Assembly (NCBI GenBank): GCA_030600545.1
Contig: JAUVLV010000020.1
Location: 1-42,888, forward strand
Length of the DNA: 42,888 bases
Reading direction: 5' to 3'
DNA from: Candidatus Aegiribacteria sp.
GTDB lineage: Bacteria; Fermentibacterota; Fermentibacteria; Fermentibacterales; JCC-6
In this document: piece after piece, positions 1 through 35,999 of the stretch
Position numbering within the stretch: position 1 is the first letter of the stretch
Layout of the letters: the number at the start of each line of letters is the position of its first letter
Notes under the pieces: model-generated
Told to the model about the DNA's origin: nothing
The model's input: only the letters and a program-made list of their open reading frames with translations
Databases searched by the model: none
Position numbers and translations under genes: made by a program

Positions 1-2438
1 ACGGAGACGATGATGATTACATGCAGGGGGCATGCCTGCTCTTTCGCGATGCTGTGCTGCTTGCCGATGAGGATGTGGATTACAGTCAGTATGACGCAGT
101 TATTATCGTACATGCCGGTGCCGGACAGGAGGCTGATATACTGAAGAACAGCCCCGGTGATATCGGGTCGGTTTTCCTTACCCTTACAGATATGATTTAT
201 TACCTTCCAGGAGCCGGACTGGATTATCAGGGCGTTCCTACATCCGATGGAGTATATGTCCGGGAAGCTGTAATAGTTCCCGAACAGGAGTCACAGGACG
301 GTTTTGGACTCGGTGTACTGGGAACCATCTGTCACGAATTCGGTCACCAGCTGGGTCTGCCGGATCTTTACGATACCAATACAGGTCATGTTGGAATTGG
401 CGGCTGGGACCTGATGGGTTACGGCCAGTGGATGATGAGCGGCTACTGGCCCTCATCACTCAGTGCATGGTCTAGAGTATTTCTCGGCTGGAATTCGCCT
501 TCTGAAGTTTCCGATGGAACCTTTACTCTGGCTTTCAACGATTCCATTCTAAAAGTTCCTTTGAACGGATCGGAGTATCTGCTGATTGAGAACAGGCAGC
601 GTGACCCTGACGGAGACCATATGTGCGGAATACACGAGCATGATTTTGGCCTTCCGGGTTCCGGGGTCTTGATCTGGCATATCGACGAAACTCGCCTTGG
701 AGACTATCTCGCTATGAACATGGTCAATGTAGACCCAGACCATAAAGGCGTAGATCTTGAGGAAGCGGATGGCATACAGGATTTCGACTATTCACTTCCC
801 GATATTTACGGTTACGAGGGCAGCGAGTTCGATCCATGGTTCCGGGGGGGTTACGCATGGGAATTTTCCCCCACCTCCGAACCCTCTAGCGACGCAAGCT
901 GGGGTGGAGAGACTTTTGTTACAGTTGAAGTCCTGGATGAACCGGCCAATGACATGAACGTACGCATAGCCAGAACAACAGTATGTGACGGATGGCCTGT
1001 TCAGGCATCCCTTCTGGAATGGGGACCGGTGATCTGGGAAAATGCTGATTCTTCAGGTGATCGGATCGTTGTGACAACGACTACAGGTTATGCAATCGCT
1101 TACACATATGATGGTATCGGTCCTGATCCCATGGGAATTGGAATCACTGCTCCTCCTGTGGCAGGTAATCCATCGGGAGGCTCACATCTCCTGCTGGTGT
1201 GCGGAAACGATGGTCAGGTTCATCTCAGGGATATACAGTGGAATGAACCTGATGGTTGGCCCGTAACTCTTTCAGGTGGCGGCACAGGTATAGCTGCATT
1301 TATCAGTTCCAGGCTTGGTATTGTAGCAGTGGCGGACGATAAGAATAAAGTACACCTTTACGATTCCGCGGGAATACAATTCAGTGAATGGCCTGTAGTT
1401 ACTCAGGCGCAGGTAGCAGGTATGGCCGTATATCCTGATGATGAGAATCCCGGCATTATCGCTTCAACGATTGACGGCCGCATTTATCTCTGGAACAAGG
1501 ATGGTACTAAAGCTGAGGGCTGGCCCGTTGTACCTGGTGATGAAAAGATCGGAATACCCCTTGCTGCTGATATAAACCGTGATGGTTCACCCGATATTAT
1601 CGCGGTCAGCGGTGATTACACCTATGCGTATGACCGACAGGGCAATATCCTGCCGGGATTTCCCTCGATGCTTGCAGCTTCCCCGCTTTCTTCACCCTGC
1701 CTGGGTGACCCGAATATGGATGGACGGATGGAGACTGTCATTCTGACGCATGAGGGTGTAGCTGCCGTGGGTGCTTCAGGGGCTACTCTCGAGGACTGGC
1801 CGGTTATGCTTGAGCAGGACAGTCTGGTTTCCGATTACAGCAGAAACAGAAGGGGTATCTCCGGCAGAGGATTTGCATTGATCTCAATGGATGACGGTCG
1901 GATATGTCTGTTCGATCATGAAGGCACACAGAGCGGAATATTTCCTGTATCGGTTGGAGATAACCCCATAGGACGTCCCCTGCTGTGGGACCCTGAGAGT
2001 TCAGGAAACTGGAGGGTAGTTGCGGCTGATAAGAGGGGTTGCATCTACTGCTGGAATACTTCGATAGTACCTGATGGATGGTTCTCCGGCCTGGATATGT
2101 CCGGTTCGAACTGCTGGTGGAGCGAGGATCTTCCCACCCTTCCGGTTTCCGGTGCCATACTCAGTGAGGGTTCCTTTTACGTTTATCCGAATCCTGTTCA
2201 GCAGGGCAGCGGAATCATCCGTTTCCAGCCCGGTGAGAACTGTTCATGGGAGATAAGAATATTTAACATGGGAGGAGACCTGGTATTCCTTGAAACCGGA
2301 ACAGCTTCAGGCGGTTCTGCATGGGAAGTACCCTGGAATACCGAAAACCTTGCTCCGGGTATCTATTTTGTCAGTTTACACTTGTCCTCCGATACCGGAT
2401 CAACGGATGATCTATTTCATGCGGCGGTGATAAATTGA
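1..2438 (+). CDS. Secreted M6-family metalloprotease with sorting domain (5' partial)
   Basis: The reading frame is open to the first base of the window, so the N-terminus and signal peptide are missing. Counting from the first in-window ATG at 21, the zinc site HEFGH lies at residues 105-109 and continues as QLGLPDLYD, the HExxHxxGxxD form typical of M6 (immune inhibitor A type) peptidases. A region rich in repeated WPV segments follows (roughly residues 320-690: DGWPV, SEWPV, EGWPV, EDWPV), which suggests an FG-GAP or PQQ-like propeller. The last 80 residues (YPNPVQQ ... LAPGIYFVSL) form a FlgD-like, T9SS type A-like sorting domain. The protein is therefore inferred to be a large exported protease. 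It overlaps the next gene by 4 nt (TTGA), so it heads, or sits inside, a coupled operon. Confidence 0.88.
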   Translation, partial: GDDDDYMQGACLLFRDAVLLADEDVDYSQYDAVIIVHAGAGQEADILKNSPGDIGSVFLTLTDMIYYLPGAGLDYQGVPTSDGVYVREAVIVPEQESQDGFGLGVLGTICHEFGHQLGLPDLYDTNTGHVGIGGWDLMGYGQWMMSGYWPSSLSAWSRVFLGWNSPSEVSDGTFTLAFNDSILKVPLNGSEYLLIENRQRDPDGDHMCGIHEHDFGLPGSGVLIWHIDETRLGDYLAMNMVNVDPDHKGVDLEEADGIQDFDYSLPDIYGYEGSEFDPWFRGGYAWEFSPTSEPSSDASWGGETFVTVEVLDEPANDMNVRIARTTVCDGWPVQASLLEWGPVIWENADSSGDRIVVTTTTGYAIAYTYDGIGPDPMGIGITAPPVAGNPSGGSHLLLVCGNDGQVHLRDIQWNEPDGWPVTLSGGGTGIAAFISSRLGIVAVADDKNKVHLYDSAGIQFSEWPVVTQAQVAGMAVYPDDENPGIIASTIDGRIYLWNKDGTKAEGWPVVPGDEKIGIPLAADINRDGSPDIIAVSGDYTYAYDRQGNILPGFPSMLAASPLSSPCLGDPNMDGRMETVILTHEGVAAVGASGATLEDWPVMLEQDSLVSDYSRNRRGISGRGFALISMDDGRICLFDHEGTQSGIFPVSVGDNPIGRPLLWDPESSGNWRVVAADKRGCIYCWNTSIVPDGWFSGLDMSGSNCWWSEDLPTLPVSGAILSEGSFYVYPNPVQQGSGIIRFQPGENCSWEIRIFNMGGDLVFLETGTASGGSAWEVPWNTENLAPGIYFVSLHLSSDTGSTDDLFHAAVIN

Positions 2439-3100
2439 TAAGAATTTCAGCGGTTCTTCTCTTTTCCCTCCTGATCGTACTGTCCGGCATTGCAGATGCG
2501 GACCCCGGATCCCGGAAGGGCGCGATGCTGAGATCCGCCGTGCTTCCCGGATGGGGACAGATGCATCTTGATCATTCGACCAGGGGTATTGTTTTCATGA
2601 GTTTTGATGCCCTTACCTGGGCTGGTGTCGGTCTGTCATACCTTGAAGGTACATTCGACAGAGATGACTACACCTGGCTTGCGATTTCCGAAGCCGGCAT
2701 TTCCGTTTCCGGGAGGTCAAACAATTTTCTTGATGACATATCGGATTTTTCATCAAGCACAGAATACAACGATTACATCCATAGGCTTGCAAGGTATTAC
2801 TATCCCGACGATCCCGATGCCCAGAGGGGATATTTCGAATCCCATGCCAGGTACGGAGAGGATGGATGGAACTGGTCATCGGATACCGCGAGGAACCAGT
2901 TTGCCGACAGATTGAGAGAAAGCAAAGAGTGGTTCAGAAGAAGCATGTACATTGCCGCCTTTGCCCTGGTCAACAGAGTTGTCAGCGTAATAGACGCATC
3001 ACTTCTGGATGAGAATCGACCAGGTGTTTACACATCACTTGCTTTTCCCGAGTCTCGCGACTTTTCATCCGTCAGGTTTTCGATTGGAGCAAGGTTCTGA
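2435..3100 (+). CDS. Small exported/membrane protein, DUF5683-like
   Basis: The 221-residue product starts at TTG, overlapping the preceding stop by 4 nt. An N-terminal hydrophobic stretch (ISAVLLFSLLIVLSG) looks like a signal peptide. It is followed by SAVLPGWGQMHLDH and a second hydrophobic stretch. The 'A.LPGWGQ' segment resembles DUF5683 proteins, which are common in Bacteroidota and relatives and have no firm function. The rest is rich in charged and aromatic residues and ends in a short beta-like stretch (VRFSIGARF). Its place between two secreted proteases suggests a role at the envelope, but nothing catalytic can be seen. Confidence 0.72.
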   Translation: MIRISAVLLFSLLIVLSGIADADPGSRKGAMLRSAVLPGWGQMHLDHSTRGIVFMSFDALTWAGVGLSYLEGTFDRDDYTWLAISEAGISVSGRSNNFLDDISDFSSSTEYNDYIHRLARYYYPDDPDAQRGYFESHARYGEDGWNWSSDTARNQFADRLRESKEWFRRSMYIAAFALVNRVVSVIDASLLDENRPGVYTSLAFPESRDFSSVRFSIGARF

Positions 3101-4764
3101 TGATAATACTGCTGCTTTCTCTGATTCTTCAGAGTTCAAGTCCAATGTGGTGGGTTGATGGAACCCCTCTGGTTCCAGGGATCATGGAAATAGAGAGACG
3201 CCATGATCCCTCATTTGAGGCTACCGGCCCCCTGAGTACCGGTAAGGGGCACAGCATAGGAGATACGATAAATTTCTGGTCCATCGATCATAGCGGTGAT
3301 TTCCCGGAATTCTACCTTACTTCAGCCACCTGCAGGTATGTTGGCGAAAACACCTACATTTTCGTGGAGGATACACAATGGGAAGCTCATCATTACGACC
3401 ATGATGCGGTAGACGCATTCTCGGAAGCGCTTGAGGACAGTACCCCATCGGGGCCGGGAGGAATTGTCGAAACCGATATTGATGTTTTCGGCCAGCCCCC
3501 CGATGCCATAGACGGTGACCCGAAGATCTACTTCCTGGTGCTTGACATCAGAGATGGTTTCGACCATCAGCAGGGTGGAGCTTACATTGCAGGATTTTTC
3601 AGCCCGTATAACCAGTTCACCGAAACCGAGGCTTACCTGTACTACGGAGGGCATTCCAACGAAGTTGAAATGCTTTACATCGACTGTTACCCGGCCGATC
3701 AATTCGATGCGGCCTACACTGCATCTCACGAACTTGTGCACCTTATTCAGTGGGGAATAGCGCCCTTCAGCTCCGAGGAATTATGGGTAATGGAAAACCA
3801 GGCCCAGTCGGGAACATTCGTTTGCGGGTATCCGGCTTTTCAGGTTGAGACATTTCTTGAGGTGGGGGGGATAACCCCTATCAAGTGGACGAGCATTGAG
3901 GATACAATAGAGTATGTCGCGGGTTACGGGTCAGGCTATCTTTACTTCGCGTATCTGTATGAGAATTACGGCGGGGAGGATTTTCTTTACGAGTCTCTCC
4001 GGTCTACAGAGCGCGGAATTGCAGGTATAAGTGAAGCCATCTGCAGCGCTACAGGTTCGAATCCTGATATGAACAGGATTCTTCTGGACTGGATGCTGGC
4101 ATGCTGGATAGATAACCCGAACGTTGGCAACGGGAAATACGGATGGGAATCCTTCAGGATTGCCGATTACGATACGGTATTACCCGGAAACAGACCCGGT
4201 CTTGATTACACGTTCGAGATCACAACCGACCCCTTTTCACATGCAGGTGACCATATGTCCTCCTACCAGGGCAAATATTACAGTGTTAATGAATCATTGA
4301 GAGGCAGCTTCCGCGCAGGGGCAGCAGGCCTGGGTGATATGAGGGCTTTCGTTTACAATGAAACCGGCGGGTTAATTGAGGAAATTGATGCCGGTTCAGC
4401 GAACGATGTGGCGATATCACTTCCTGAAACGGGTGATGTTCTACTTCTCTGCAATTCATTTTCCGGCCTTGACCTTGATGTATCGGCAGGCTCAGTCATA
4501 TCCTCGACGGATGCTTTTACATTTTATCCCCAGCCCTGCCGCGGTACGCTCTTCTTCCAGTTCAGGTCCAACGGAGGGAATGCTGCGTTTTCGGTGTTTA
4601 CGATTTCTGGAGGATATGTGGAAACTGTCAGCTACAACAGTGTTGCCAGCGGAGAAGCGACCTTGGCTTATCCCGGAGCATCCAATCTCGCATCGGGTAC
4701 ATACTTCTTCAGATTCAATCAGGGGAGCAGGATAGAAACCGGCTCGTTCGCAGTTGTGCGCTAA
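3100..4764 (+). CDS. Secreted M30-like zinc metallopeptidase with sorting domain
   Basis: The 554-residue product has a signal peptide at residues 1-15. The zinc motif HELVH is at 210-214, with a likely third ligand, E232, in ELWVMENQA. The HExxH ... W-x-x-E-x-A arrangement resembles M30 (hyicolysin-like) gluzincins. Family assignment beyond 'gluzincin' is tentative. The C-terminus (FYPQPCRGTLFFQF ... LASGTYFFRF) is the same FlgD-like sorting domain carried by the M6 protein upstream. The start ATG shares one base with the preceding stop (TGATG), so translation is probably coupled. It is inferred to be cargo of the same export route as the M6 protease. Confidence 0.82.
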   Translation: MIILLLSLILQSSSPMWWVDGTPLVPGIMEIERRHDPSFEATGPLSTGKGHSIGDTINFWSIDHSGDFPEFYLTSATCRYVGENTYIFVEDTQWEAHHYDHDAVDAFSEALEDSTPSGPGGIVETDIDVFGQPPDAIDGDPKIYFLVLDIRDGFDHQQGGAYIAGFFSPYNQFTETEAYLYYGGHSNEVEMLYIDCYPADQFDAAYTASHELVHLIQWGIAPFSSEELWVMENQAQSGTFVCGYPAFQVETFLEVGGITPIKWTSIEDTIEYVAGYGSGYLYFAYLYENYGGEDFLYESLRSTERGIAGISEAICSATGSNPDMNRILLDWMLACWIDNPNVGNGKYGWESFRIADYDTVLPGNRPGLDYTFEITTDPFSHAGDHMSSYQGKYYSVNESLRGSFRAGAAGLGDMRAFVYNETGGLIEEIDAGSANDVAISLPETGDVLLLCNSFSGLDLDVSAGSVISSTDAFTFYPQPCRGTLFFQFRSNGGNAAFSVFTISGGYVETVSYNSVASGEATLAYPGASNLASGTYFFRFNQGSRIETGSFAVVR

Positions 4765-5512
4765 CGTATTTTCCTTCCTGTTCGTGGTTATGAGTACTCT
4801 GCCGGTTTCTGATACTTCTGCGGAACAGACTGACACTGATTTCGGGTATATCATGGTTCCCGACGGAATAATTGACGCTGAGATAAACGGGGCAGGAGAT
4901 ATTTACATACTTCTGCCAGGACTGCCTCATCTGCGTATTTATTCAAATGATGGCACTGTTTCCGAGTATGATCTTTCCGATGTTATCCTTCCCGGCGGCA
5001 TGTGTATTGATGAAAGATGGGGATGGTTCGTTACTGGCGAGCTCACGGATATGGTATATCGTTACGATAATGCTGGTGAACTTACAGATTCATGGGATTC
5101 ACGAGGCTTGCCCGGTGATATCTGTCTTTCAGGTCTATCCGTTTTATATGTATCACGGACAAGTGGTACAGTTTCCAGCCTTGACGAACCGGATGATATT
5201 CTGGTTCGACTGGATGGTTCCTGTGAAGGACAGCTGTCCGCATCGGGGAGGGAAGCAGTTTACTCGAGCGAAAACGAATCGCTCCTTTTCGGTAATTTTA
5301 CAGCCCCCGAGCCGTTATCCGGAACAGGCATATGGACCGTTGCTGGAGAAGAGTTGCTGGTTCTGCAGGACTCCTGCGTACTGGATGGCAGTGGAAACAT
5401 TCTGTTTCGTCTTCCCCAATGCGGGGAGTTCTCACGCATATGCTGTTCGTTGAATGGTAATCACTGCCTGCTCTGGTCACCGGGGGAAGGCAGAATCCTG
5501 GTGCTTCAGTGA
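4754..5512 (+). CDS. Exported beta-propeller-like protein
   Basis: The 252-residue product starts at TTG 4754, inside the end of the preceding gene. An internal ATG at codon 13 is possible, but the TTG keeps the whole hydrophobic segment (VFSFLFVVMSTLPVS) and fits the overlapping operon style. The body has repeated short strands with IYxL, LRIYSNDG and VYRYDNAGELTDSWD segments, as in NHL or six-bladed propellers. This is a fold guess only; no enzyme motif is seen. It ends in GTGA, overlapping the next start. The context suggests a periplasmic or surface accessory to the large beta-rich protein that follows. Confidence 0.68.
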   Translation: MCANVFSFLFVVMSTLPVSDTSAEQTDTDFGYIMVPDGIIDAEINGAGDIYILLPGLPHLRIYSNDGTVSEYDLSDVILPGGMCIDERWGWFVTGELTDMVYRYDNAGELTDSWDSRGLPGDICLSGLSVLYVSRTSGTVSSLDEPDDILVRLDGSCEGQLSASGREAVYSSENESLLFGNFTAPEPLSGTGIWTVAGEELLVLQDSCVLDGSGNILFRLPQCGEFSRICCSLNGNHCLLWSPGEGRILVLQ

Positions 5513-8500
5513 GCCTTTTCTCCGCTTTGGTACTGATCCTTGCATCGATGTCCCTGGAGTTCGAAAGTGATGGTTCAGCCTTTTTCGAAACTCCTGATTC
5601 ACTCTGGATAATGCCCGGCACCATTACGGCCATCGCTGACGGAGATACGCTGAATGCGGTTTCGGGAACCTCAGGTGTAAAGACAGGTGTTATTTTCAAC
5701 CCGTCTCCGCCAGAAGGCAGCACAGTCGTGCTGAAATTTGATGTGCTTCAGTTGAATATCCCGTCTTCGGTTTCGCTTGATGTAAATTTTGCGGAAAGAC
5801 AACTGATCGAGCAATTGTCCGGATATACTGCTGATCCATTCCAGGAACACGGCCTGTACATATCAGGTTCGAAGAGGATAGGATTTTCTGTCGGTGACGG
5901 AGGAGGGCTTGACCAGGGAACAAGAATTTCGGTTGAAGGCACAGCGGCTCCCGGGATCACTGTTTCTGGAAGTGTAACAGATCGCAATATGGCTGCAGGG
6001 TCCTCTTCCTCGGAGCTTGTCTCACAGCTTGACAGGATATTCTTCCTCGTAGACGGAGGATCATGGAGGGCCAGGCTGGGCGATATGGAATGGATCAGCG
6101 GCAAATATGAAACCGGACCCCTTTCATGGAGAAGAGAAGTAAGCGGAGTTGACGCATGGGGGGAGATCTCGCAGTCCGTCACCACTGGTGCGGGATATGG
6201 AACATCAGGCGATTCCAGGCAGAGAACCGTATTCTTCACAGACGAGGGAATTCAGGGGCCTTACAATGTAACCTCAGGCTGGGAAGTCGTTCCCGGCAGT
6301 GAGAAGGTCTGGCTGGATGGACAGCTCATGTATCGGGGTTCTACCGAGGATTATCAGATGGAATATTCGGCCGGTCTCATAACCTTTACATCTGCGCGGC
6401 TCATAAGAAATGATCAGCGTGTTGAAATTACCTTCTTTCAGCGTGGTGACGGTTTCAGAAAAGATTTTGTCACAGCTTTTTCACAGTACTCCGGGAGTGG
6501 TCTGGAGATTGAATTGAAGGGATTCTTTAGTGAAGATGACAGGGAATCTTCACTGGGATTCGTACTCACAGAAGAGGCTGTGGATGTTCTCCGCTCCGCA
6601 GGTGAGAATCCGGCGGACGCATGGATCGATGGGGCTTCGAGTGTGGGGCAGGGCAACGGATGCTATATGCTGGATTCACTGGAGCATTACATTTACACAG
6701 GGCCGAACCAGGGTGACTGGGATATTGTGTTCGGAAGACCTCCTTCGGGGAAAGGAAATTACATTTTCGACAGTTCCCTTGGTGGTTACATCTGGATAGG
6801 AGAAGGCAGTGGAACCCACCTGCCCCGTCAGTACATACAGATACCATCAGGATACAGCACAGGTGGTTTTTCAGCTGAGTACACATCCAGTGGTTTTAAC
6901 CTGGGGCTGGAGGCTGCCTTTTCCGGAAGAACCGGAAACCTGTACAATCCGGATGAGACATCAAGGGAGGGCACCTGCTTCATCGGTTCAATGAACATGG
7001 AATTCTGGGAAGAGGGCCCCGGGCTCGGAATCGGCGGAAGACTGGTTTCCTCCGGATACGAAGCTCCCGGAGAACTCGAGCCGGACAGTTCACTTGCCGC
7101 GTGGTCTCTTCCCGCCGAATATGAAGGCAGGGACAATATCGCGGAAGTAAGTCTTGGAGGGAATAAACTTCTTGCGGCTGTTTCGGGCAGATTCATGGAA
7201 GCCGGTGGTATCCTTGAGAGGTATCGTATTACTTCGAAACCTGTTCTGGGGAATATTGGTGTAGACGCCGGAGGAACATTCCTTAAGCGGACAGGTACCC
7301 ATCAGATGGCCATGGGTCAGACCTCATCCATTTCAGTATCAGTCATACCGGTAACAGGTTCATTCAAACCCTTTGCAGGCTGCAGTTTCTCAGAAGAATC
7401 CTGGCAGGACAGTCTTGCGGGAGATGTCAACACGGGATTTGCGGGTATCTCCTTCAGCAGGAACACCACAGATGCACTTCTCCGGGTTGAGCTTCAGGAC
7501 GATTCAAGATCAGGGGAGAGTTTCGGGGAACCTTTCAACGTGTGGAGAACGCGTCTGGAGGGATCCGGTCCCACCGGGGAATTGAGGTACAACGGAAGTT
7601 TTGAGCATTCATCAACTTCCTACGACTGCGGTGGAGAACTTCAGGCGGATGCCATCAGAATATCACTGACCGGAACCACGGGGGATGTATGGATGGAGGC
7701 TGTTTATAATGGATCAGGGACCATTAGCAGATCCCTTGATGTAATGTACATTTATGTGGGTGAGGGGGAAGGAAATTACAGTTATGATGCAGAAAGCAGC
7801 CAGTACTATGCTGACCCTGATGGCGATTACGATGTAATCTACCAGCCGGGAACCGCTGGCGATGCAGTAACTTCCGGGTCACTTGAAACGACACTTTCCT
7901 ACTCCGGCACATCATCCGGTGTAAGTTCCGTAGTAAGGATCTCCGCCAGCAATTCCCTGGACAGAGAGAAGTCCCTGCTGCTGTACGGTGCGTTTGACAG
8001 CAACGAGGAAGGAGGATACAGCCTGAATCTCTCACCCTGGTTCCGCTGGGAAGAAGGTCTTATGAGCAGGCTGACTTTCACCGGGAGGCTCAGGAACGAA
8101 AGGATTTCCTACAGTGGAGCCGGATTGAAGAATGAAAGGATGTGGTCCCTCAGGGTGGGACCGGAATTGTGCCCTGCGGATATCCTTGTAATTGAATGCT
8201 CAGCGAGAATCTGGCGCGAGGAGGAGGAACTTTATTACCCACGGGATACGAGGGGGCTGAGACTGGAAATTGATCCGACCCTGGAGCCATCTCCCGGTCT
8301 GAAGCCCGGTATCCTGGCAGCTTGCGAATTCAGAAGAGAAATTGTTTCAGATCTTGATAAGTATATGCTTGAAGCCGGCCCGCACTTCTCATGGACAGGT
8401 GGAGGCTGGACCGCGATGGCCAGAGTATCCACGGGATACATACCTGGGGATGATGAACTTCCCGTCTGGTTCTTTGACGGCAATGATAGCGGCATCTCAT

Positions 8501-8631
8501 GGAGGACAACATCAAGGATAGGCAAGAGCCTTTCATCAGGGCTTGATATCAGTGTATTCTACTGGGGAAGAAAACCCGCAGGAAGCAGCTGGAATCAGAG
8601 AGCCGGCCTGGAGGGGACAGTGAACTTTTAG
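5509..8631 (+). CDS. Large outer-membrane beta-rich protein, possibly SprA-like
   Basis: The 1040-residue product starts at GTG within the preceding stop. An N-terminal hydrophobic stretch (LFSALVLILASMSL) serves as the signal peptide. The rest is dominated by alternating polar and aromatic strands typical of outer-membrane barrels or surface adhesins. Around residue 263 the segment GSEKVWLDGQLMYRG is followed by DYQMEYSAGLITFTSARLI. This resembles the 'VNG..L..G.DY..DY..G.I.F' motif that I recall recurring in SprA, the T9SS translocon barrel. An earlier segment (GLYISGSKRIGFSVG ... GTAAPGITVSGSV) also fits SprA-type N-terminal repeats. At 1040 residues it is far shorter than SprA (over 2000), so this is a resemblance and not an assignment. 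The TAG stop abuts the ATG of the Omp85 gene. Confidence 0.72.
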   Translation: MSLFSALVLILASMSLEFESDGSAFFETPDSLWIMPGTITAIADGDTLNAVSGTSGVKTGVIFNPSPPEGSTVVLKFDVLQLNIPSSVSLDVNFAERQLIEQLSGYTADPFQEHGLYISGSKRIGFSVGDGGGLDQGTRISVEGTAAPGITVSGSVTDRNMAAGSSSSELVSQLDRIFFLVDGGSWRARLGDMEWISGKYETGPLSWRREVSGVDAWGEISQSVTTGAGYGTSGDSRQRTVFFTDEGIQGPYNVTSGWEVVPGSEKVWLDGQLMYRGSTEDYQMEYSAGLITFTSARLIRNDQRVEITFFQRGDGFRKDFVTAFSQYSGSGLEIELKGFFSEDDRESSLGFVLTEEAVDVLRSAGENPADAWIDGASSVGQGNGCYMLDSLEHYIYTGPNQGDWDIVFGRPPSGKGNYIFDSSLGGYIWIGEGSGTHLPRQYIQIPSGYSTGGFSAEYTSSGFNLGLEAAFSGRTGNLYNPDETSREGTCFIGSMNMEFWEEGPGLGIGGRLVSSGYEAPGELEPDSSLAAWSLPAEYEGRDNIAEVSLGGNKLLAAVSGRFMEAGGILERYRITSKPVLGNIGVDAGGTFLKRTGTHQMAMGQTSSISVSVIPVTGSFKPFAGCSFSEESWQDSLAGDVNTGFAGISFSRNTTDALLRVELQDDSRSGESFGEPFNVWRTRLEGSGPTGELRYNGSFEHSSTSYDCGGELQADAIRISLTGTTGDVWMEAVYNGSGTISRSLDVMYIYVGEGEGNYSYDAESSQYYADPDGDYDVIYQPGTAGDAVTSGSLETTLSYSGTSSGVSSVVRISASNSLDREKSLLLYGAFDSNEEGGYSLNLSPWFRWEEGLMSRLTFTGRLRNERISYSGAGLKNERMWSLRVGPELCPADILVIECSARIWREEEELYYPRDTRGLRLEIDPTLEPSPGLKPGILAACEFRREIVSDLDKYMLEAGPHFSWTGGGWTAMARVSTGYIPGDDELPVWFFDGNDSGISWRTTSRIGKSLSSGLDISVFYWGRKPAGSSWNQRAGLEGTVNF

Positions 8632-9990
8632 ATGTTAAGAATAATTGTATCCATTGTACTCACGTTATCCTCGGTGGAAGGTTCGCTCACTGTTGAAATT
8701 GGGGGCAGCCCTCCCGTTCCCGTTATGTATGAGCTTGGGATTGACTCAGTTCTCGCTTCCGATTCATCTATCACAGTGCTGCAGGAAAGTATTTTGCAGT
8801 GGTATTTGGAAGAGGGTTACCCATTTGCCGGGGCGGGATATTATTTCGCGGCAGAGGATTCTCTCAGGGTCAATACCGTTCCCGGAAGACATGCCCTCCT
8901 CGAGGAAGTTCGCATTGAGGGAGCACCAGGAACCCGCACCAAGGTTTTTTCAAGACTTCTGTCAATGAAACCCGGTGATACATACGATCGAGAAGCAGTC
9001 AACACATGGATTGAAAGAATCGATCGACTGAAATTCGTCGAAGCCACAGGCGTTACCGAACTCTTTCTTGGAGAAGGCGGTAATCTTGTCCTCCTGCAGC
9101 ACATCCAGAAGGGGAAGTCAGGTCATTTTGCCGCGTCGATGGATTGGCAGGGAAAGAACCTTGAGGGAGCGGGAGAGGTACTTTTCCTGAATCTTGCGGG
9201 AACAGCGAGGGAGTTGGAGATTGCCGGCCAGACAACCGAATGGGGTGGTATAAACGCGTATCTGCGGTATAGAGAGCCGTGGCTGTTCGGCATACCTCTT
9301 TCAGCTCAGCTGGAAGCATCACAGGATACCCCTGAAAGCTCATGGGTGAACAGGGAGGGAAGCCTTTCCTTTATCTGGAGCATGAACCAAACCGAGATTA
9401 TGGGAGGTGCAGGCATATGGAGAGGTTATCCGCCGGATGGGGAGCGGCAAAGCTACGATTACGGTCTTGCGGGAATAGCCTGGTACACTGGTTACAGGGT
9501 TCCGCAGGGCTGGAATGGACTGGAGATGCAGCTGGAAGCAAGGTCAGGTAATAGAAGCGGGCAGGATTCTTCTGGTGTTCTGACCATGGCGGAACTGAAA
9601 ATTGACGGAAACATCTACAGGGGTTTCATGGGTTTCGGGGGCAGATTACTGACAGGAGGAGTTATGCAGGGAGATTGGTTCGAAGGGCTTCTTGAGCAGC
9701 TGGGCGGGCAGGAAACCCTCAGAGGTTATACTGAGAATGCTTTCAGGGCAGTAAGATATGTAATAGCAAAACCTGAGATATCAATCGGTGAAACCGAAAC
9801 AAGAATTTACCTGTTCTGTGATCTCGCAGCCATTCGAACCCCGGAGCAGGACATGAAATATCCTGTGGGCTGTGGAGCTGGAATAAGGGGAATGAGCGGT
9901 ATTTTCCTTGCTGACGCGTCAGCAGGATTTCCGTTCAGGGAAGGACTCGGCAGTGCCAGGCTATATCTTCGTGTTGTCGCTTCGATATAA
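8632..9990 (+). CDS. Omp85-family outer-membrane protein (POTRA plus barrel)
   Basis: The 452-residue product starts directly after the preceding stop. It has a short signal peptide (IIVSIVLTLSSVEG), then one or two POTRA-like modules. These include LEEVRIEGAPGTRTKVFSRL and the strand-helix pattern around MKPGDTYDREAVNTWIERI (about residues 85-140). A barrel follows, with the diagnostic GGQETLRGY at 358-366, equivalent to the conserved (V)RGF/Y loop motif of BamA, TamA and TpsB proteins. It is shorter than BamA, which usually has five POTRA domains and about 800 residues, so it is likely an accessory Omp85 (TamA/TpsB-like or patatin-type barrel). Its place at the end of a protease and surface-protein operon suggests a dedicated role in export or assembly. 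Confidence 0.86.
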   Translation: MLRIIVSIVLTLSSVEGSLTVEIGGSPPVPVMYELGIDSVLASDSSITVLQESILQWYLEEGYPFAGAGYYFAAEDSLRVNTVPGRHALLEEVRIEGAPGTRTKVFSRLLSMKPGDTYDREAVNTWIERIDRLKFVEATGVTELFLGEGGNLVLLQHIQKGKSGHFAASMDWQGKNLEGAGEVLFLNLAGTARELEIAGQTTEWGGINAYLRYREPWLFGIPLSAQLEASQDTPESSWVNREGSLSFIWSMNQTEIMGGAGIWRGYPPDGERQSYDYGLAGIAWYTGYRVPQGWNGLEMQLEARSGNRSGQDSSGVLTMAELKIDGNIYRGFMGFGGRLLTGGVMQGDWFEGLLEQLGGQETLRGYTENAFRAVRYVIAKPEISIGETETRIYLFCDLAAIRTPEQDMKYPVGCGAGIRGMSGIFLADASAGFPFREGLGSARLYLRVVASI

Positions 9991-10752: not shown

Positions 10753-11982
10753 ATGTCACCTAAGAAGCAGACGATTATATCTGCTGAAATTCTCTTCGAC
10801 GGCCATAAGAAAATGGAAAACTGCTCGGTGGTTGTTGAGGGTAAGAAAATCATCGATGTTGTTAAGAAAAAGATGAGATCCGATTATCACGGTTTCGTAA
10901 CACCGGGTTTCATAGACGCTCATTCTCATATAGGAATGGACAGGGAGGGGGAACCCTGGACCGAATCCGAAACCAATGATACTCTCGCTCAGATTCTGCC
11001 GGTTAACGACCCCATTAACAGTATCTACTTCGATGACAGGGCATTCAAAGATGCTGTGGATTTCGGCATACTCTACAGTTGCGTGGTCCCCGGGAGCGGT
11101 AATCTTCTTGGAGGCAAGGCAAAGATCATAAGGAATTTCATGCCGAACAGGAAAAACGCAGTTATAAAAGACTACGGCTACAAGATGGCTCTGGGGTTTA
11201 ATCCTCGGTCCACCACCGACTGGAAGGGTGACCGTCCCAATACCAGAATGGGAATCTACGCCCTGCTCGAGCAGAAATTCGATGATGTGCTGAACAAGCG
11301 GGACAAGGCGGAACTCGAGAAGGCGAAAAGCCTGCACAAGCTGTCGCAGGATGCAAAAGAGAAAAAGTTCTCGAAGAAGGAACAGGATTTTCAGAAGAAA
11401 GCTATTGAACAGGAATATCTCCAGACTTTCAAACCCGCTGAAAAGGCTGTGATTGAACTGCTTGACGGGAAAAAAACCGCCAAGGTTCATGTTCACAAAG
11501 AGGATGATGTTCTTTACCTTATCGAGCTGGTTTCGAAATACGGAATTAAAGCTACAGCTGATCACACCGGTGATGTTTTTCACAGGGAAATATTCAACGA
11601 TCTGGCAAACGCCGGTATTCCTATAGTGTACGGACCATTGGGTTCCGTTGGATACAAGGTTGAACTTAAGCATGCTTACTACCAGAACGTCGGGCTTCTG
11701 ATGAAATCCAGGGCATTCTACGGCCTGATGACCGACCACCCCGTTATATGGGCACCAGCATTGAGGGACAGTCTTAAATTCTTCCTGATAGCGGGAATGA
11801 GCCCTGAGGAGGCCATTTCACTGATTACCTTCAAGAATGCGAAGATTCTCGGAATAGATGATCAGTTAGGTTCCGTTGAAGCCGGCAGGACAGCGAGCCT
11901 GCTTGTATGGGACCGTCATCCATTGGACCTCGCGGCTTTCCCGAGAATGGTAATGGCAGAGGGGAAAATCATCAGGAAGTAG
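10753..11982 (+). CDS. Amidohydrolase-family metal-dependent hydrolase
   Basis: The 409-residue product matches imidazolonepropionase/dihydroorotase-like amidohydrolases. It has GFIDAHSH (H57 and H59 as metal ligands), later metal-site candidates H246/H248 in KVHVHKEDD and H271 in TADHTGD, and the catalytic Asp in LMTDHP (D328). The C-terminal segment (LGIDDQLGSVEAGRTASLLVWDRHPLD) is the usual composite beta-domain return. An insertion of charged helix around residues 180-225 (KRDKAELEKAKSLHK ...) is a little unusual. The substrate cannot be read from sequence. The RBS is AAAGGGGAA, 5 nt before the ATG. Confidence 0.87.
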   Translation: MSPKKQTIISAEILFDGHKKMENCSVVVEGKKIIDVVKKKMRSDYHGFVTPGFIDAHSHIGMDREGEPWTESETNDTLAQILPVNDPINSIYFDDRAFKDAVDFGILYSCVVPGSGNLLGGKAKIIRNFMPNRKNAVIKDYGYKMALGFNPRSTTDWKGDRPNTRMGIYALLEQKFDDVLNKRDKAELEKAKSLHKLSQDAKEKKFSKKEQDFQKKAIEQEYLQTFKPAEKAVIELLDGKKTAKVHVHKEDDVLYLIELVSKYGIKATADHTGDVFHREIFNDLANAGIPIVYGPLGSVGYKVELKHAYYQNVGLLMKSRAFYGLMTDHPVIWAPALRDSLKFFLIAGMSPEEAISLITFKNAKILGIDDQLGSVEAGRTASLLVWDRHPLDLAAFPRMVMAEGKIIRK

Positions 11983-12017
11983 TATTCCACCGAATTTTCA
12001 TCTTCTACAGCGGGATA

Positions 12018-12224
12018 CTATTCCTTCTTTTTACGCTCAGTTATAAAGTGATGTGCAAGGTATCCTATTGCAAAGCCGAGAAGGGCGACGAAGAAGAGAA
12101 GGATTATAATGGACATGCTTATCGTCCAGAAGAGAAGATGCACATCAGCTACATTTGTGTTCTGAACGATAAAGACAACAAGCACTATCACAAGGATCAG
12201 AATCGCGACCATCTTAGGTTTCAT
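12018..12224 (-). CDS. LapA-domain (DUF1049) small membrane protein
   Basis: The 68-residue product has two hydrophobic helices: residues 5-22 (MVAILILVIVLVVFIVQN) and 36-59 (MSIIILLFFVALLGFAIGYL). The N-terminal part ends in the FIVQNT signature of LapA/YciS-type proteins, and a basic tail (ERKKKE) follows. In enterobacteria, LapA helps control lipopolysaccharide assembly; that function is not established outside them. The RBS is weak (AAGGT). The gene converges with the amidohydrolase gene. Confidence 0.8.
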   Translation of the reverse strand: MKPKMVAILILVIVLVVFIVQNTNVADVHLLFWTISMSIIILLFFVALLGFAIGYLAHHFITERKKKE

Positions 12225-12418
12225 ATTACACTACCTTGTTTTGAGTATTTACTATACATACCGATTTTCCTTACATCGAATGTCCGGCATCAGCAGACTG
12301 CGAGGACGAGTCCATGATTCCTTTCGGTACTGTCTTAGTTATACAATGCAATCCGCTGTTCCAATCTCCTGATCATCATTTTCATAATGCTGGAAATTCC
12401 ACAAATCGTACACTGGAC

Positions 12419-14230
12419 TTATTCAACTTTGCGCAACGCTCTGTCGAAGAAGTCAAGAACCTTTCTCATGACATTGATCTGTGTGATTTCCTTGCGAAAG
12501 TAATGATCCTCGTCACCGTATATCTCGAGAGTGCATTTCCTGCCGTTGCTCTCCATCCGTTCCTTCAGCTGCTCCGCCTGTCCGAGAGGAACGCGCTCAT
12601 CCTTAGCGCCCTGCAGTATCAGAAGGGGAGCTGTGATCTCGGCGCAATGGTTAATGGGAGAACGCTGGTGGTAGAACACCGGATTCTCCTCGGGGCTGCC
12701 AATCTGATCCTCTATCCACTCCCTCATCCAGCCACTGGTGCTGGTGTGAAATGTCTCAAGATCGACAAACCCGAAGAGATCTACCCCCGCTGCCCATTTC
12801 TCCGGCGCCCTGGCCATGGCCATCAGCATCAAGTAACCTCCGTAACTACCACCCAGGAGAGCAATCTTATCCGGGGCGGCCTGTTCAGTTAACTAAAGCC
12901 AGTCGGCTCCCGCTATTACGTCCTTCAGATCTCCACCACCCCAGTCGCCAATGCTTCTCTTCTTGAACTCTTCCCCATACCCGGTGCTTCCACGGAAGTC
13001 TGGAGCCAGAACAAGATACCCGTGCGAGACCAGGAGCTGAATTCGAGGGTGCCACCAGTTATACGTTTGATAGTTGGGTCCTCCGTGAAGCCATATTACG
13101 GCAGGAGGTAACTCGCTGTTCACTTCAGCCGATGGTTTGTAAAGAAGTGCTGGAATCTCAAGCCCATCGAACGAAGCGTAGCAGATCTCCTCGGGAGCTA
13201 CCAGATCCTTCCTGTCGATGGAATCAGGGAGTGCGTTCGTCAGCTGCCGCAGATCACCGCTATCCAAATCCAAGTGCCACAGGTCGAAGGGATTCCGGGG
13301 TCCCTCATGAGTAAAGAGAAGCGCACTGCTGTCTGGAGTGAACTCCATGTCTGAACATAAACCTGATCTTGGCCCCACGGTCTTCATTTCCCCGGTCCCG
13401 ATTTTAACTGTGGTTATTCTTCGACTCCCGTTCTTTTCAATCTGGCATGCAAGCCGAGTTCCATCAGGTGACCAGACCGGGGTCCAACAATTGCTTTCTT
13501 TTCCGGTCAGCCAATTCGTTTCATTCGTTTGAAGATCCAGCAGCCCGATTCGAAAGCAACCGCATTTATTGGACCCGAATGCGATTATCTTCCCGTCAGT
13601 TGACCAACTGCCCCAGGCATTGCGATTCGCTTCCGGTCCGATGGCCTGCAGTCCCGCACCATCTCTGTTGATCAATCTCATCTCGTATCGTCCCATTGGC
13701 CCCTTGCTGAGGCGACTGTAGAAGAGCAGTCTTCTTCCGTCCGGAGACCACCGTGGGTCAAAGTCATTCTCCGAACCCGAGGTAAGGCGGTGCATACCTT
13801 TTCCATCTGACTGCACTACATAGATGTCAAATGATCCTTCGTAGTTTGAGCTGAATGCGAGATGGTTTCCATTAGGTGACCAGGAAAGGCCGCAGAAACC
13901 TCCTTTCCCGAGTTCTGTCAGTCTCCTGATTTCATAATTGGTCGGGCTGGTCGCAAACAGATCCGATTTACCCTCATCTACGCCGTGAATGAAAGCGATC
14001 TGACTACCGTCCGGAGACCAGCAAGGCAAGGAATTGGAACCAGGGCCTTCTGTCAGCTGCACCGGTCTGAATTCTTCAATCTGTGAGATGAAGATCTGCG
14101 TATTGACTTCTGTCTGCCTGGCGAATGCCACGAACTCGCCGTCGGGTGAGAGCGAAAATCCCTCAACAGTCCTAACCCCATTAATAAGCTCCTCGGGTTT
14201 GAACCGACGGTGTTTCATAGTTTTATACAA
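12419..14230 (-). pseudogene. S9 prolyl-oligopeptidase-family peptidase, interrupted by in-frame TAG
   Basis: Two stretches in one frame together encode a full S9 peptidase. Codons 1-445 (14230-12896) give the TolB/WD40-like propeller with many SPDG repeats (SWSPNGNHLAF, RWSPDGRRLLF) and the start of the alpha/beta hydrolase domain. Codon 446 (12893-12895) is TAG. The frame then continues without a shift into the catalytic part: nucleophile motif GGSYGG (Ser at codon 462), acid in GAKDERVP and His in GDEDHYF, ending at TAA 12419. The TTG start at 14230 has AGGAG 8 nt upstream; an ATG at 14218 is too far from it. Without suppression, only a propeller with no catalytic residues would be made. 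It could be a real nonsense mutation or a sequencing error. Confidence 0.87.
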
Positions 14231-24201: not shown

Positions 24202-25908
24202 ATGAAGTATATACTTATACTGCTTATCGCTGTTGTTTCATTGTTCGCAGGGACTATTCAGCCTGCGCTTCAGCAGGAGATGACGTCTTCATTCAGTACC
24301 GATCTGATACCGGTATTCATACTGGTTCAGGGAGAACTGGATACCGACTGGATCGATGCTGCTACTGCGAATATGACGAGGGCGGAAAAGCAGCGGTTCG
24401 TAGTTGATGCCCTCAAGGAAAGGGCTGAGATCTCTCAGGCACCTGTTCTTACGGAACTTGAAGCCTTCAGTTCGGAGCAGGTCGTTGAGATTCACACTTT
24501 CTGGCTTGCCAACGCAGTCTACTGCGAAGCAACCCCTGATGTTATAAGACAGATGTCGAACCGCTGCGATGTATCCCTTGTTGAGAAAGGTAACTACGAA
24601 AACAGCGGACTGATAGAGCCTGTTGAAGTTCGTGAGCCTTCGAGGGAAGAAGCAGGCAAGGCGCTTACATGGGGCGTATCAAAGATAAACGCAGATGATG
24701 TATGGGCACTTGGCTACAACGGCAGCGGAGTTATCGTAGGTGTGATAGACACCGGAACCGATTACAACCATCCTGATCTTCACAACAATATGTGGCATGA
24801 TACTGCAGCGGGATATCACTACGGATACGATTTTTACGATAATGATAACGATCCCATGGATACTTATGGCCATGGAACACACACTTCAGGAACTATCTGC
24901 GGTTCAGGTACAAATGGAACTCAAACGGGTGTAGCGCCGGGAGCCACCTGCATGGCTCTCAGAATCAATTACTATGTTGGCGGTTACCCAACCTGGATCC
25001 AGGCCATGGAGTTCGGAACGGATCATGGCGCGGCTGTGCTTTCAATGTCCATGGGCACTACTAATAACTCGACACTGAGAACCGCTGAGGAGAATCTTTT
25101 AACTGCTGGTGTTTTTCACAGTGTTTCAGCTGGTAATTCTGGTCCGGGCTCAGGTACTATAGGCTGCAGTGGCGACTGTCCACCGCCATGGTTCCACCCC
25201 GACCAGACATATCATGGAGGGCAGAGCGCTGTCATTACTGTGGGTGCAACGGATAGCGGTGATAATATCGCCAGCTTCTCAAGTCGTGGACCGGTAACCT
25301 GGTGGAGTGATTACAGTGACACCTCACCATTGATCGATCCTGATATCAGCGGACCGGGTGTTGATGTGGTCAGTACTGAGTGGGGTACAGGCGGATATAC
25401 GACCATGGATGGAACATCAATGTCCGCTCCGCATATTGCCGGTGTTGCTGCCCTCATGCTTTCTGCTAACCCAAGCCTTTCAGTTGCCAAGCTTGACAGT
25501 CTTATTGAGGTTACCTCCATGGATCTTGGATCCAGCGGGAAGGATAATACCTACGGTGCAGGCAGAGTAGATGCTTATCAAGCTGTTCTGGGTGCTCTTT
25601 CTTTGGTTGGTATTGCAGATAATCCACAGGGCGTTGATCCTTCAGGACTCCTGATGGGTTCGATCAATCCCAACCCTGTTCATGGCCTGGCTTCTTTCGA
25701 GATTTGCACAGAGAATCCAGGAATGGTTGACATAGGTGTTTTCGATTTATCGGGCCGCAGGATTGCGATTGTCAGTTCTGAAGAGATAGCCGCCGGAACC
25801 CATGCCTACAGCTGGATAGTTCCTGAAACAGTGGGGAACGGTATCTATTTCGTTCGTGCCAAAGTAAACGGTATTACTGTTTCATCAAGGATGACAATCA
25901 TTAAATAG
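24202..25908 (+). CDS. Secreted subtilisin-family (S8) serine protease with sorting domain
   Basis: The 568-residue product has a signal peptide (YILILLIAVVSLFAGT) and a prodomain-like segment to about residue 155. The catalytic domain has D183 in VIDTGTDYNHPDL, H224 in YGHGTHTSG and S406 in GTSMSAPHIAG. The Asn oxyanion region is SVSAGNSGPGSG. From about residue 480, INPNPVHGLASFEI ... GNGIYFVRAKVNG is the FlgD-like, T9SS-type C-terminal domain seen on the other three proteases. The RBS AAGGAGG is at ideal spacing from the ATG. A strong terminator follows at 25931. It is predicted to be exported, and processed at the C-terminus if a T9SS-like machinery exists. Confidence 0.93.
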   Translation: MKYILILLIAVVSLFAGTIQPALQQEMTSSFSTDLIPVFILVQGELDTDWIDAATANMTRAEKQRFVVDALKERAEISQAPVLTELEAFSSEQVVEIHTFWLANAVYCEATPDVIRQMSNRCDVSLVEKGNYENSGLIEPVEVREPSREEAGKALTWGVSKINADDVWALGYNGSGVIVGVIDTGTDYNHPDLHNNMWHDTAAGYHYGYDFYDNDNDPMDTYGHGTHTSGTICGSGTNGTQTGVAPGATCMALRINYYVGGYPTWIQAMEFGTDHGAAVLSMSMGTTNNSTLRTAEENLLTAGVFHSVSAGNSGPGSGTIGCSGDCPPPWFHPDQTYHGGQSAVITVGATDSGDNIASFSSRGPVTWWSDYSDTSPLIDPDISGPGVDVVSTEWGTGGYTTMDGTSMSAPHIAGVAALMLSANPSLSVAKLDSLIEVTSMDLGSSGKDNTYGAGRVDAYQAVLGALSLVGIADNPQGVDPSGLLMGSINPNPVHGLASFEICTENPGMVDIGVFDLSGRRIAIVSSEEIAAGTHAYSWIVPETVGNGIYFVRAKVNGITVSSRMTIIK

Positions 25909-26324: not shown

Positions 26325-26473
26325 CCAATTCTATTAATTTATCCTTGTATATCCGCTAATGAATAAGGAGACAATACAGGAACTGTAGAGAGCCTCAGGT
26401 GTTATGGCTTTATAGAAATCAATCTAAAACATAATTGCAAACAAATACATTATCCATATGAAAGGATGTGAGA

Positions 26474-28852
26474 ATGAAATATCTTTTTACCATTATACTG
26501 TTTATATCGGCGTTTTCCGCTTCTGCAGGCCAGATGATCGTACCGGTTTCACTGGACGTTTCCGCGATCAATTTCGATGAAGCCGGTATTTATACAAGAA
26601 TAACTGGCACTGGAATGCGACTCATGGGAGCTGAGGGAGAACCGAGTCTTCCCGAGTTTACTGCCAGGATAGCCCTTCCAACCGGATGCGCGGCAACCGG
26701 CATTGAAGTGGTGGACGCGGTTTATACAGACATCCGCGGCCGCTACACTGTATTGCCGGCATCCGCGCCTGTTCCTCTTTCGGTCGAGCAGGAAATACAT
26801 CCGGTTGAACCTGACCCGCATATTTACAGTTCAAGCACTCCATATCCTCAAAGACCGGTCAAGTTTGCCGGCTCAAGTGTTATTATGGGAATCCCGGTTA
26901 CTTACGTGAACGTATTCCCTGTAAGATGGAATCCTGCCAGCAAAACTATCGAAATTCTTACAGACCTTACGCTGAATGTAACCTACGAGAACAGCCCCAC
27001 AGCATCCACAGTATTCAGAAGAAGCATACAGAGCGAACTGCGCTCGCAGGAGATAGTCAGGAATTCAGTTGTGAACCCGGAAGCCGTTTCAAGCTCGGGC
27101 GCCGCAATAGTTGACTCGAAGGATCTGACCTACGGTGAATACGTAATCATCACCTACCCCAGTTACGAAAGCTACGCACAGAATCTGGCCGACTGGAAAG
27201 CCTCAAAGGGTGTTCCCACAAACGTTTACACAACCACCTGGGTACAGAGCCAGTATTCATGTTATGATTTGCAGCAGGAGATCCGCGCATTCCTGACTGA
27301 TTGTCGAGATGAGGGTGTTGAATACGTTCTCATATATGGAGATGACAACAGAATAGCCGGAAGAGACGTAAAGATCTCTACCAGCGGCTACACCGAGTAT
27401 CCACCAGTTGACCTTTACTGGGCTGACATCAACGACACCGGCCCCGGTGTTGACCTCTGGGATAGCAACCACAACCATATCTGGGGTGAATACGGTATCG
27501 ATAACGTTGATTACCATCCGGACCTCTGGGTTGGAAGGGCAAGTGTAAGCGATTACGTTGATTGCACCACTTTCAATGAGAAGGTTTATGCATACGAACG
27601 TATCTCAGCCACAGACTATTTTGACTCAGCTCCCATAGAAATAAGAATCGGTTACACAACAGGTTTCCTTTTTGACGCTACTCCTGATGTTTGGGGGTAC
27701 ACTGGTGCTGAGATGATCTCAGCCATGGTTCCCTCTTCAAGCTGGAAAGAAGAAAAATGCTACGAACATAGTAGCAATAACAGCAGCACAATCACCATAA
27801 ATATGATAAATGCCGGCCCCCATCATGTGTACCATGCAAGCCATGGCGCCAAGACATCGATGTACACGTCGTACGGAAGTGATTACACTACAACCAATAT
27901 ACTGGCTCAAACCAATATTTCAAGCGGTAATCTTCCGGCGATCTGGAACTCCATCTCTTGCCTTATCGGCCATCTTGACGGTTACGAATGCTGCGGTGAC
28001 GCCTGGCTTAATTCCCCCAACGGAGGTGGCTTCGGAGCTTTCAACGCCAGGTACGGATGGGGATCCTATACCGCCGGTTATGGCCCCAGCGAGATCCTCT
28101 CAAGGAACTTCTACGATGTGATGTGGAACGATGACCTTTACAACCTTGGTGTGGCTCACCTCATGGGCAGCGACGCGATGTGCCCGCCTTCCGATGATTG
28201 CGATGACTGGTGCGTAAAGGAATACAACCTCTTCGGAGAACCTGAATTACCTATGTGGTTTATTGACGCTTCGGATCTTTCCGCTTCTTATGACGGTACT
28301 ATCTCAGTCGGTCCCGGCAATGTTACAATAACTGTGACTGACCCATCAAAGGGTAATGTCAGTGGTGCCAGAGTCTGCCTTCAGAAGGGCAACTGGCAGA
28401 CCGGAGAGGTCTACGAAGTTGGAACAACCAACGCAAGTGGTTCTGTAACACTTTCTGTCAATCCAACATCAACAGGCTCCATTTCCGTAGTTGCTTGGGC
28501 AAGGGATCATATATCCTATCAGGGCAGCATCACTGTAGTACCTACTGGAATTGAACGTGATGATACTCCGGTATTTGTCAATAACGTAAGCGCTGTTTAC
28601 CCAAGTCCCGCCATGAGCAGTGCTACAATACCCTTCAACCTTGCATCTGCAGGTGCCGCCAGGATCGATGTCTACGATATAACAGGCAGGATTGTAACTA
28701 CCCTTGCTTCAGAAGAGATGGCAGCGGGTCAGCACAGTCTTGTCTGGAACCTCGAAGATAGCAATGGCGCAGCAATTCCTTCCGGTGTATACCATGTAAG
28801 GATTGTTACCGCTGACTGGACTGGCACAACAAACCTTGTTGTAGCAAGATAG
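26474..28852 (+). CDS. Secreted gingipain-like (C25) cysteine protease with sorting domain
   Basis: The product is 792 residues from the ATG at 26474, which has AAAGGA at good spacing; a GTG two codons earlier is possible. The signal peptide is KYLFTIILFISAFSASAG. A C25-type propeptide and Ig-like region (to about residue 215) precede the catalytic domain beginning YVIITYPSYESYAQNLADWK. The dyad is H457 in YHASHGA and C496 in NSISCLIG. After about residue 600 come an Ig-like domain and the FlgD-like sorting domain (YPSPAMSSATIPF ... IPSGVYHVRIVT). Gingipains are classic T9SS cargo, so this protein is the best hint that the shared C-terminal domain is a secretion signal. A terminator follows. 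Confidence 0.92.
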   Translation: MKYLFTIILFISAFSASAGQMIVPVSLDVSAINFDEAGIYTRITGTGMRLMGAEGEPSLPEFTARIALPTGCAATGIEVVDAVYTDIRGRYTVLPASAPVPLSVEQEIHPVEPDPHIYSSSTPYPQRPVKFAGSSVIMGIPVTYVNVFPVRWNPASKTIEILTDLTLNVTYENSPTASTVFRRSIQSELRSQEIVRNSVVNPEAVSSSGAAIVDSKDLTYGEYVIITYPSYESYAQNLADWKASKGVPTNVYTTTWVQSQYSCYDLQQEIRAFLTDCRDEGVEYVLIYGDDNRIAGRDVKISTSGYTEYPPVDLYWADINDTGPGVDLWDSNHNHIWGEYGIDNVDYHPDLWVGRASVSDYVDCTTFNEKVYAYERISATDYFDSAPIEIRIGYTTGFLFDATPDVWGYTGAEMISAMVPSSSWKEEKCYEHSSNNSSTITINMINAGPHHVYHASHGAKTSMYTSYGSDYTTTNILAQTNISSGNLPAIWNSISCLIGHLDGYECCGDAWLNSPNGGGFGAFNARYGWGSYTAGYGPSEILSRNFYDVMWNDDLYNLGVAHLMGSDAMCPPSDDCDDWCVKEYNLFGEPELPMWFIDASDLSASYDGTISVGPGNVTITVTDPSKGNVSGARVCLQKGNWQTGEVYEVGTTNASGSVTLSVNPTSTGSISVVAWARDHISYQGSITVVPTGIERDDTPVFVNNVSAVYPSPAMSSATIPFNLASAGAARIDVYDITGRIVTTLASEEMAAGQHSLVWNLEDSNGAAIPSGVYHVRIVTADWTGTTNLVVAR

Positions 28853-34214: not shown

Positions 34215-34252
34215 TTATAATGTATAACGAAATAAAAGGTTCTTGCCTGAAA

Positions 34253-34328
34253 TGTCTAATAGTGCAATATTTGCCATCTACTACTCGAGCTATACTTAAC
34301 AGTGCATTATTTGCATCATATGTCTAAT
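34253..34328. repeat. Short direct repeats before the TPR gene
   Basis: AGTGCAATATTTGC (34261-34274) and AGTGCATTATTTGC (34301-34314) differ by one base and start 40 bp apart, i.e. about four helical turns. Each side is flanked by TGTCTAAT (34253-34260 and 34321-34328). The spacing suggests paired binding sites for one regulator. Confidence 0.5.
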
Positions 34329-34338
34329 GGAGGAAAGA

Positions 34339-35904: not shown

Positions 35905-35931
35905 GAACATTCTGAGCGATCTATAAGCTAT

Positions 35932-35967
35932 CGCCGGTATGGTTACGCCCAGCCGGCGGTTTCTTTT
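35932..35967 (+). terminator. Terminator after the TPR gene
   Basis: CGCCGG at 35932-35937 pairs with CCGGCG at 35953-35958, followed by GTTTCTTTT. The loop is long (15 nt), so strength is uncertain. Confidence 0.6.
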
Positions 35968-35999
35968 CCATTCGCTTACATTTAACTGAAATCATGATA

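Follow-up and report, generated by a model that had tools for sequence, protein, structure and literature searches.

The type IX secretion system (T9SS) has been surveyed chiefly in Bacteroidota, where its genes are dispersed, so that missing parts are hard to find by gene neighbourhood. A 2016 survey placed the system only in Bacteroidetes and modelled several of its components as scattered (PMC4793230). In P. gingivalis the T9SS genes are scattered except for porPKLMN and no gene adjacent to them encodes cargo; the genes for PorU and PorV are themselves adjacent, 75 bp apart (PMC5445135). The SprA barrel of F. johnsoniae has 36 strands and opens laterally at the site where PorV docks and extracts the C-terminal domain (CTD) of the substrate (PMC10994853), and the unusual outer-membrane proteins of Bacteroidota require a heavily modified BAM (PMC12611786). 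We found no report in the open literature of type IX secretion in Fermentibacteria or Hyd24-12.

Here we analyse a 42,888-nt stretch of DNA from Candidatus Aegiribacteria sp. (the window), which is contig C3 of a 73%-complete genome (G000, 2.29 Mb), together with a comparison set of 42 genomes of the Fermentibacterota (candidate division Hyd24-12), whose named members include Candidatus Aegiribacteria, Sabulitectum and Fermentibacter. An earlier note on the window had proposed that six genes at its start, here called A to F, join secreted proteases to a SprA-like protein and an Omp85 barrel in what may be a compact or divergent T9SS.

Results

The six open reading frames are closely packed, as the earlier note had said: those from A to E overlap by 4, 1, 11 and 4 nt in turn, and E and F abut (Table 1). 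Similar overlaps are found again at the orthologous loci of relatives and hence are not due to chance. They support a single mRNA, while the assertion that the genes must form one translational unit is too strong where translation is concerned. Nor is the unit confined to six genes, as had been supposed. The window opens with 141 bases that are identical to the last 141 of another contig of the same genome (C64), the overlap lies inside A, whose reading frame runs through it, and C64 ends with the genes for PorU and PorV. The search for PorV and PorU that the note had recommended thus has a positive outcome, the gene next to A on its upstream side being that of a PorV shuttle, preceded by one for a PorU-like sortase. 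A itself grows from 811 aa within the window, where its 5' end is cut by the contig end, to 943 aa once joined to C64. The window therefore truncates the unit, and the full block is PorU-PorV-A-B-C-D-E-F, preceded by YggS-DivIVA. A scan for a terminator after F returned a single site, no better than chance expectation and located inside F.

We note that YggS and DivIVA lie directly upstream of PorU, in the same order, in both families for which upstream DNA was read (L103 4259-5616; L123-L126, L128), a position that links two cell-division genes with the T9SS operon.

Table 1. Positions in the window of genes A to F and of the SprA-like motif within E.
Feature	Position	Strand	Description
A	3-2438 ORF (feature 1..2438)	+	M6-type metalloprotease-like protein with T9SS C-terminal sorting domain
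B	2435..3100	+	221-aa envelope protein, signal peptide-like N-terminus, LPGWGQ motif, weak DUF5683 similarity
C	3100..4764	+	HExxH (HELVH) putative metalloprotease with T9SS C-terminal domain, distantly MXAN_6640-like
D	4754..5512	+	252-aa secreted protein, no family
E	5509..8631	+	1040-aa predicted outer-membrane giant beta-barrel, unnamed family, C-terminus GLEGTVNF
SprA-like motif in E	6274..6435	+	residues 256-309, PGSEKVWLDGxL...DYxMEYxAGLITFT
F	8632..9990	+	452-aa short Omp85 protein (mini-BamA): 2 POTRA domains + 16-strand barrel, LRGY loop motif

The order of the eight genes, all on one strand, is kept on every relative contig long enough to cover the block, so that the conservation of gene order put forward as a check in the earlier note holds across three families of Fermentibacterota (in the third, G006, E and the PorU-PorV pair were seen on separate contigs). 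E is present in 38 of the 42 genomes. In at least one genome without it (G024) the PorU-PorV pair sits close to a contig edge, and the missing cases are therefore at least partly assembly gaps. E and F are always neighbours in the loci of relatives, and at the few loci where D is too diverged for tblastn the space left between its neighbours has the expected length. Identity outside the genus is ~66-72% for PorV, 53-63% for B, 53-59% for C, 43-55% for A, 37-56% for PorU, 38-46% for E, 38-47% for F and 22-28% for D, the fastest-evolving gene of the block, which keeps its place despite this divergence. The position of B is likewise unchanged across the phylum, at 53-93% identity. In Candidatus Sabulitectum silens JCC-6 (L093) most genes of the block match in pieces only, as if frameshifted, perhaps through sequencing errors.

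The wider genome provides a context for type IX secretion, since it encodes many CTD proteins (64 matches to Por_Secre_tail at E<=0.001, most of them above the family cut-off) and a true SprA (434 bits, contig C16). Across the comparison set a full SprA of ~1,870 aa scores above the cut-off and is encoded away from the block in 40 of the 42 genomes; the view that the operon amounts to a whole T9SS in compact form is not supported. PorV_fam is above its cut-off in 42 of 42 genomes, the window's own genome having several proteins of this family; the operon PorV scores 234 bits against PorV_fam (cut-off 90) and 169 bits against the strict PorV equivalog, below the cut-off of 250. The PorU profile NF033707 finds matches in all 42 genomes, above cut-off in 10. 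The operon PorU scores 349 bits, below the strict NCBI equivalog cut-off of 420, and when aligned with P. gingivalis PorU (6za2) it keeps the GHG and SCD motifs, the catalytic His/Cys pair. Profiles for GldL and GldM (TIGR03517, TIGR03513) matched none of the 42 genomes and were equally without a match in the control genomes. One genome of 98% completeness (G014) was considered as a SprA-less genome and was not used as evidence; its apparent lack of SprA is probably due to a masked stretch, because BamA, whose gene is close to that of SprA (within ~20-25 kb) in several other genomes, meets at its end an artificial open reading frame 24,259 aa long (contig C11).

Further genes of this kind occur outside the block. 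Within the window, a gingipain-like protein with Propeptide_C25, Peptidase_C25, FlgD-like Ig and T9SS CTD domains (26468-28852, + strand) is one of the genome's many CTD proteins, and an S8 subtilase with a weak T9SS CTD is encoded near it (24202-25908, + strand). On contig C55 two PorU-like proteins of ~1257 aa each are encoded in tandem (L104 4973-13297), with a Sir2-type deacetylase-like gene as their sole separator, and a CotH-kinase/lamin-tail/NosD protein with a CTD lies downstream of the pair. The genes for canonical BamA (11818-13971) and SprA (32624-36250) lie within ~20-25 kb of one another on C16, as they do in several relatives.

A and C had been read as metalloproteases with a T9SS-type CTD, and their domain content fits that description. 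A matches Peptidase_M6 (E=1.4e-10) and Por_Secre_tail (E=1.7e-6, above the Pfam cut-off). Its metal site, HEFGHQLGLPD, is intact in the window's genome and HExxH is intact in 16 of 18 orthologues; in two genomes of genus g4 (L061, L062) it is replaced by AKLLR or HKLMR within a surrounding region that is conserved. Against NF052323 ('T9SS-dependent M6-like inactivated metalloprotease') A scores 314 bits and a full-length orthologue 342 bits, where the cut-off is 600; judged both by score and by a metal site that is mostly retained, A would stand close to that family and not inside it. Since A is conserved in the same operon position despite loss of the active site in one genus, it would more likely be a machine part, or have a structural role, than be simple cargo. 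In C, HELVH is accompanied by a weak CTD (18.6 bits with Pfam and 19.6 bits with NCBIfam, both below cut-offs); the CTD of one orthologue (L056) reaches 24.4 NCBIfam bits, above the cut-off of 23, and HExxH is kept in 19 of the 19 orthologues checked. The similarity of B to DUF5683 (E=3.5e-4) is below cut-off, and D, for which no Pfam match was found, is beta-propeller-like at best.

The AlphaFold2 model of E, built from 25 sequences, has ~40 barrel-type strands of at least 7 residues from residue 115 onward. The 30 strands past residue 448 are mostly confident, with residues ~450-1040 mostly above 70 pLDDT, in a model with a mean pLDDT of 66 and a pTM of 0.49. E ends in an aromatic barrel signature that is conserved, and it is predicted to be a giant barrel of the outer membrane. 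It is single copy, with no paralogue in 13 genomes. Its orthologues matched no Pfam family, the family itself being absent from Pfam and NCBIfam; a sequence search against the PDB gave no match, and no relatives of E were found in viral contigs and plasmids. Foldseek pairs E best, at low TM-scores, with large barrels of the outer membrane, among them an S-layer barrel of Deinococcus, TonB-dependent receptors and LptD, and SprA appears at rank 28 (E=1.6e-6, TM-score 0.25), behind unrelated barrels. The structural check proposed in the earlier note thus yields a large predicted barrel and does not single out the SprA fold.

The SprA-like motif that had been pointed out in E is present. Against the SprA model TIGR04189, E scores 17 bits (cut-off 200; E=5e-4 in the window), its motif aligning with model positions 600-651, and all of the 15 orthologues of E give a match (best E=2.4e-6), those listed falling at model positions ~600-650. 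An hhalign comparison of E with 13 Fermentibacterota SprA proteins aligned only 36 columns (E=2.8e-4, probability 41%), and a profile of the motif, run against the genome that the window comes from, had no match besides E and the true SprA (E=0.019 for SprA). As judged from these comparisons, the shared motif of ~36-54 residues is real. We considered E as a SprA orthologue and rejected this, and the reading of E as a divergent SprA is not supported, given 17 of 200 bits, 36 aligned columns and a true SprA encoded elsewhere in 40 of 42 genomes. Scoring under the cut-off and aligning along a small part of the model, E would fall outside the SprA family, and the idea that it replaces SprA is not supported, the likeness being a short motif only and the fold search favouring other barrels. 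The N-terminal domain of E as a repeat of the SprA-like motif was also rejected (hhalign probability 0.6%).

F, which the earlier note had described as a short Omp85 protein, does contain GGQETLRGY, and its POTRA domain is above the Pfam cut-off. Its AlphaFold2 model (pLDDT 78) has two POTRAs, 16 strands and the LRGY motif. Foldseek finds BamA at E=6e-20, and a profile comparison with BamA in the PDB (E=4.7e-19) aligns F most closely with the region of BamA that spans its final POTRAs and initial strands. With its POTRA domains, 16-strand barrel and [VL]RG[FY] loop motif, F is a member of the Omp85 superfamily. It is not a canonical BamA, which has five POTRAs, and it scores 42.6 bits against TIGR03303, whose cut-off is 297; the canonical BamA of this genome is a separate protein of 744 aa (contig C16, 453 bits).

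Discussion

The conserved eight-gene block suggests an outer-membrane arm of the T9SS that has so far gone undescribed. We lean towards the view that the block is the cell-surface and outer-membrane end of a T9SS arranged as one operon, in which F would assemble E and E would belong to a PorU/PorV attachment complex; this is the single mechanism we consider most likely, and we hold it to be somewhat probable. Cargo would pass through the SprA translocon, encoded elsewhere, to be received by the operon PorV and processed by the operon PorU. A and C may be exported by their own CTDs and act at the surface as fixed parts of the machinery and not as ordinary cargo. E could be an accessory giant barrel that provides, with PorV and PorU, a docking, attachment or exit platform, and F could be a dedicated Omp85 factor that folds or inserts E, and perhaps other large barrels of the system too. 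We place E and F at the receiving or attachment end because the shuttle and the sortase keep company with E and F, whereas the SprA gene is located away from the block. A dedicated insertase is plausible, if not proven, given that a modified BAM is documented for Bacteroidota (PMC12611786). There are points against this explanation: co-location is not interaction, and what ties F to E is adjacency alone; the model of E has a pTM of 0.49 and generic fold matches; the operon PorU and PorV fall under the strict equivalog cut-offs; and the profiles for GldL and GldM, silent in the controls as well, gave no match.

There are other readings of E and F. The best fold matches of E, among S-layer, TonB-dependent and LptD barrels, together with the shortness of its SprA motif, would suit an unrelated outer-membrane adhesin or uptake barrel, with F as a general TamA-type helper and both retained in the operon solely so that they are expressed together with surface proteases; we think this not likely, in view of an invariant, phylum-wide linkage to PorU-PorV, the single copy of E, and a motif that is otherwise found only in SprA in its own genome. 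F has two POTRAs and a 16-strand barrel, which is also the layout of TpsB, and it might accordingly be an export pore of the two-partner-secretion (TpsB) or TamA kind that moves D or a surface domain of E, the T9SS genes being mere neighbours. That would sit poorly with an F profile that is nearest to BamA, in its final POTRAs and initial strands, with a block that has no TpsA-like partner and with the resemblance of the E C-terminus to that of an outer-membrane barrel, and we regard it as very improbable.

A further possibility is that E is itself a pore. It might be a second, smaller T9SS translocon, SprA-like in action, served by the operon PorV as its shuttle and handling part of the cargo, A and C for example. 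The ~40 predicted strands compare with 36 in SprA (PMC10994853), the motif occurs in this genome only in SprA and E, PorV is encoded in the same operon, and SprA is among the Foldseek matches of E (E=1.6e-6); but the profiles have only 36 columns in common, SprA comes 28th at a TM-score of 0.25, after unrelated barrels, and a SprA is already encoded elsewhere, so that we find this reading unlikely. Alternatively, and in our estimation quite unlikely, E could be a type IX exit channel of a second kind, a giant barrel with ~40 strands and an origin other than SprA, which works with the operon PorV and PorU and has F as its own Omp85 insertase. If that were true, translocons of more than one architecture would serve the T9SS at the outer membrane.

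An operon fixed across the whole phylum nominates at least four uncharacterised proteins as T9SS parts, including a giant barrel whose family is missing from Pfam and NCBIfam and a mini-BamA that might be the assembly factor for the giant barrel. The block offers a directly testable case for the insertion of very large outer-membrane barrels, and for M6-like and HExxH CTD proteins as parts of a machine and not its cargo.

Among known systems, SprA/Sov (TIGR04189; PDB 6h3i, 8gl8) resembles E in being a very large outer-membrane barrel, as E is predicted to be, and in the one motif of ~36-54 residues that they have in common, whereas E, at 1040 aa, with 17 of 200 bits and 36 aligned columns, coexists with a true SprA. 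F shares POTRAs and a 16-strand barrel with BamA/TamA, including the extended BAM of F. johnsoniae (9n2d), but has two POTRAs only, is 452 aa long and is additional to the canonical 744-aa BamA. The families NF052323, NF052324 (PorU2) and NF052325 (PorV2) have adjacent accession numbers, which suggests that they were curated together, and A matches the first of them at 314-342 bits; it does so below the 600-bit cut-off and with HExxH kept in most genomes, however, and the sortase and shuttle of the operon score much higher with the PorU and PorV_fam models than with those of PorU2 and PorV2. The PorU-PorV pair of P. gingivalis (PG0026-PG0027) is alike in that a C25 sortase, PorU, with conserved catalytic His and Cys, is followed by PorV. 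Here, in contrast, six further genes follow the pair in a fixed order, CTD proteins included, and the suggestion that this layout is unusual for a T9SS is upheld, as CTD proteins and barrels are joined in one operon, unlike in P. gingivalis (PMC5445135). To our reading, no eight-gene operon that unites CTD proteins with a new giant barrel and a mini-BamA has been described before.
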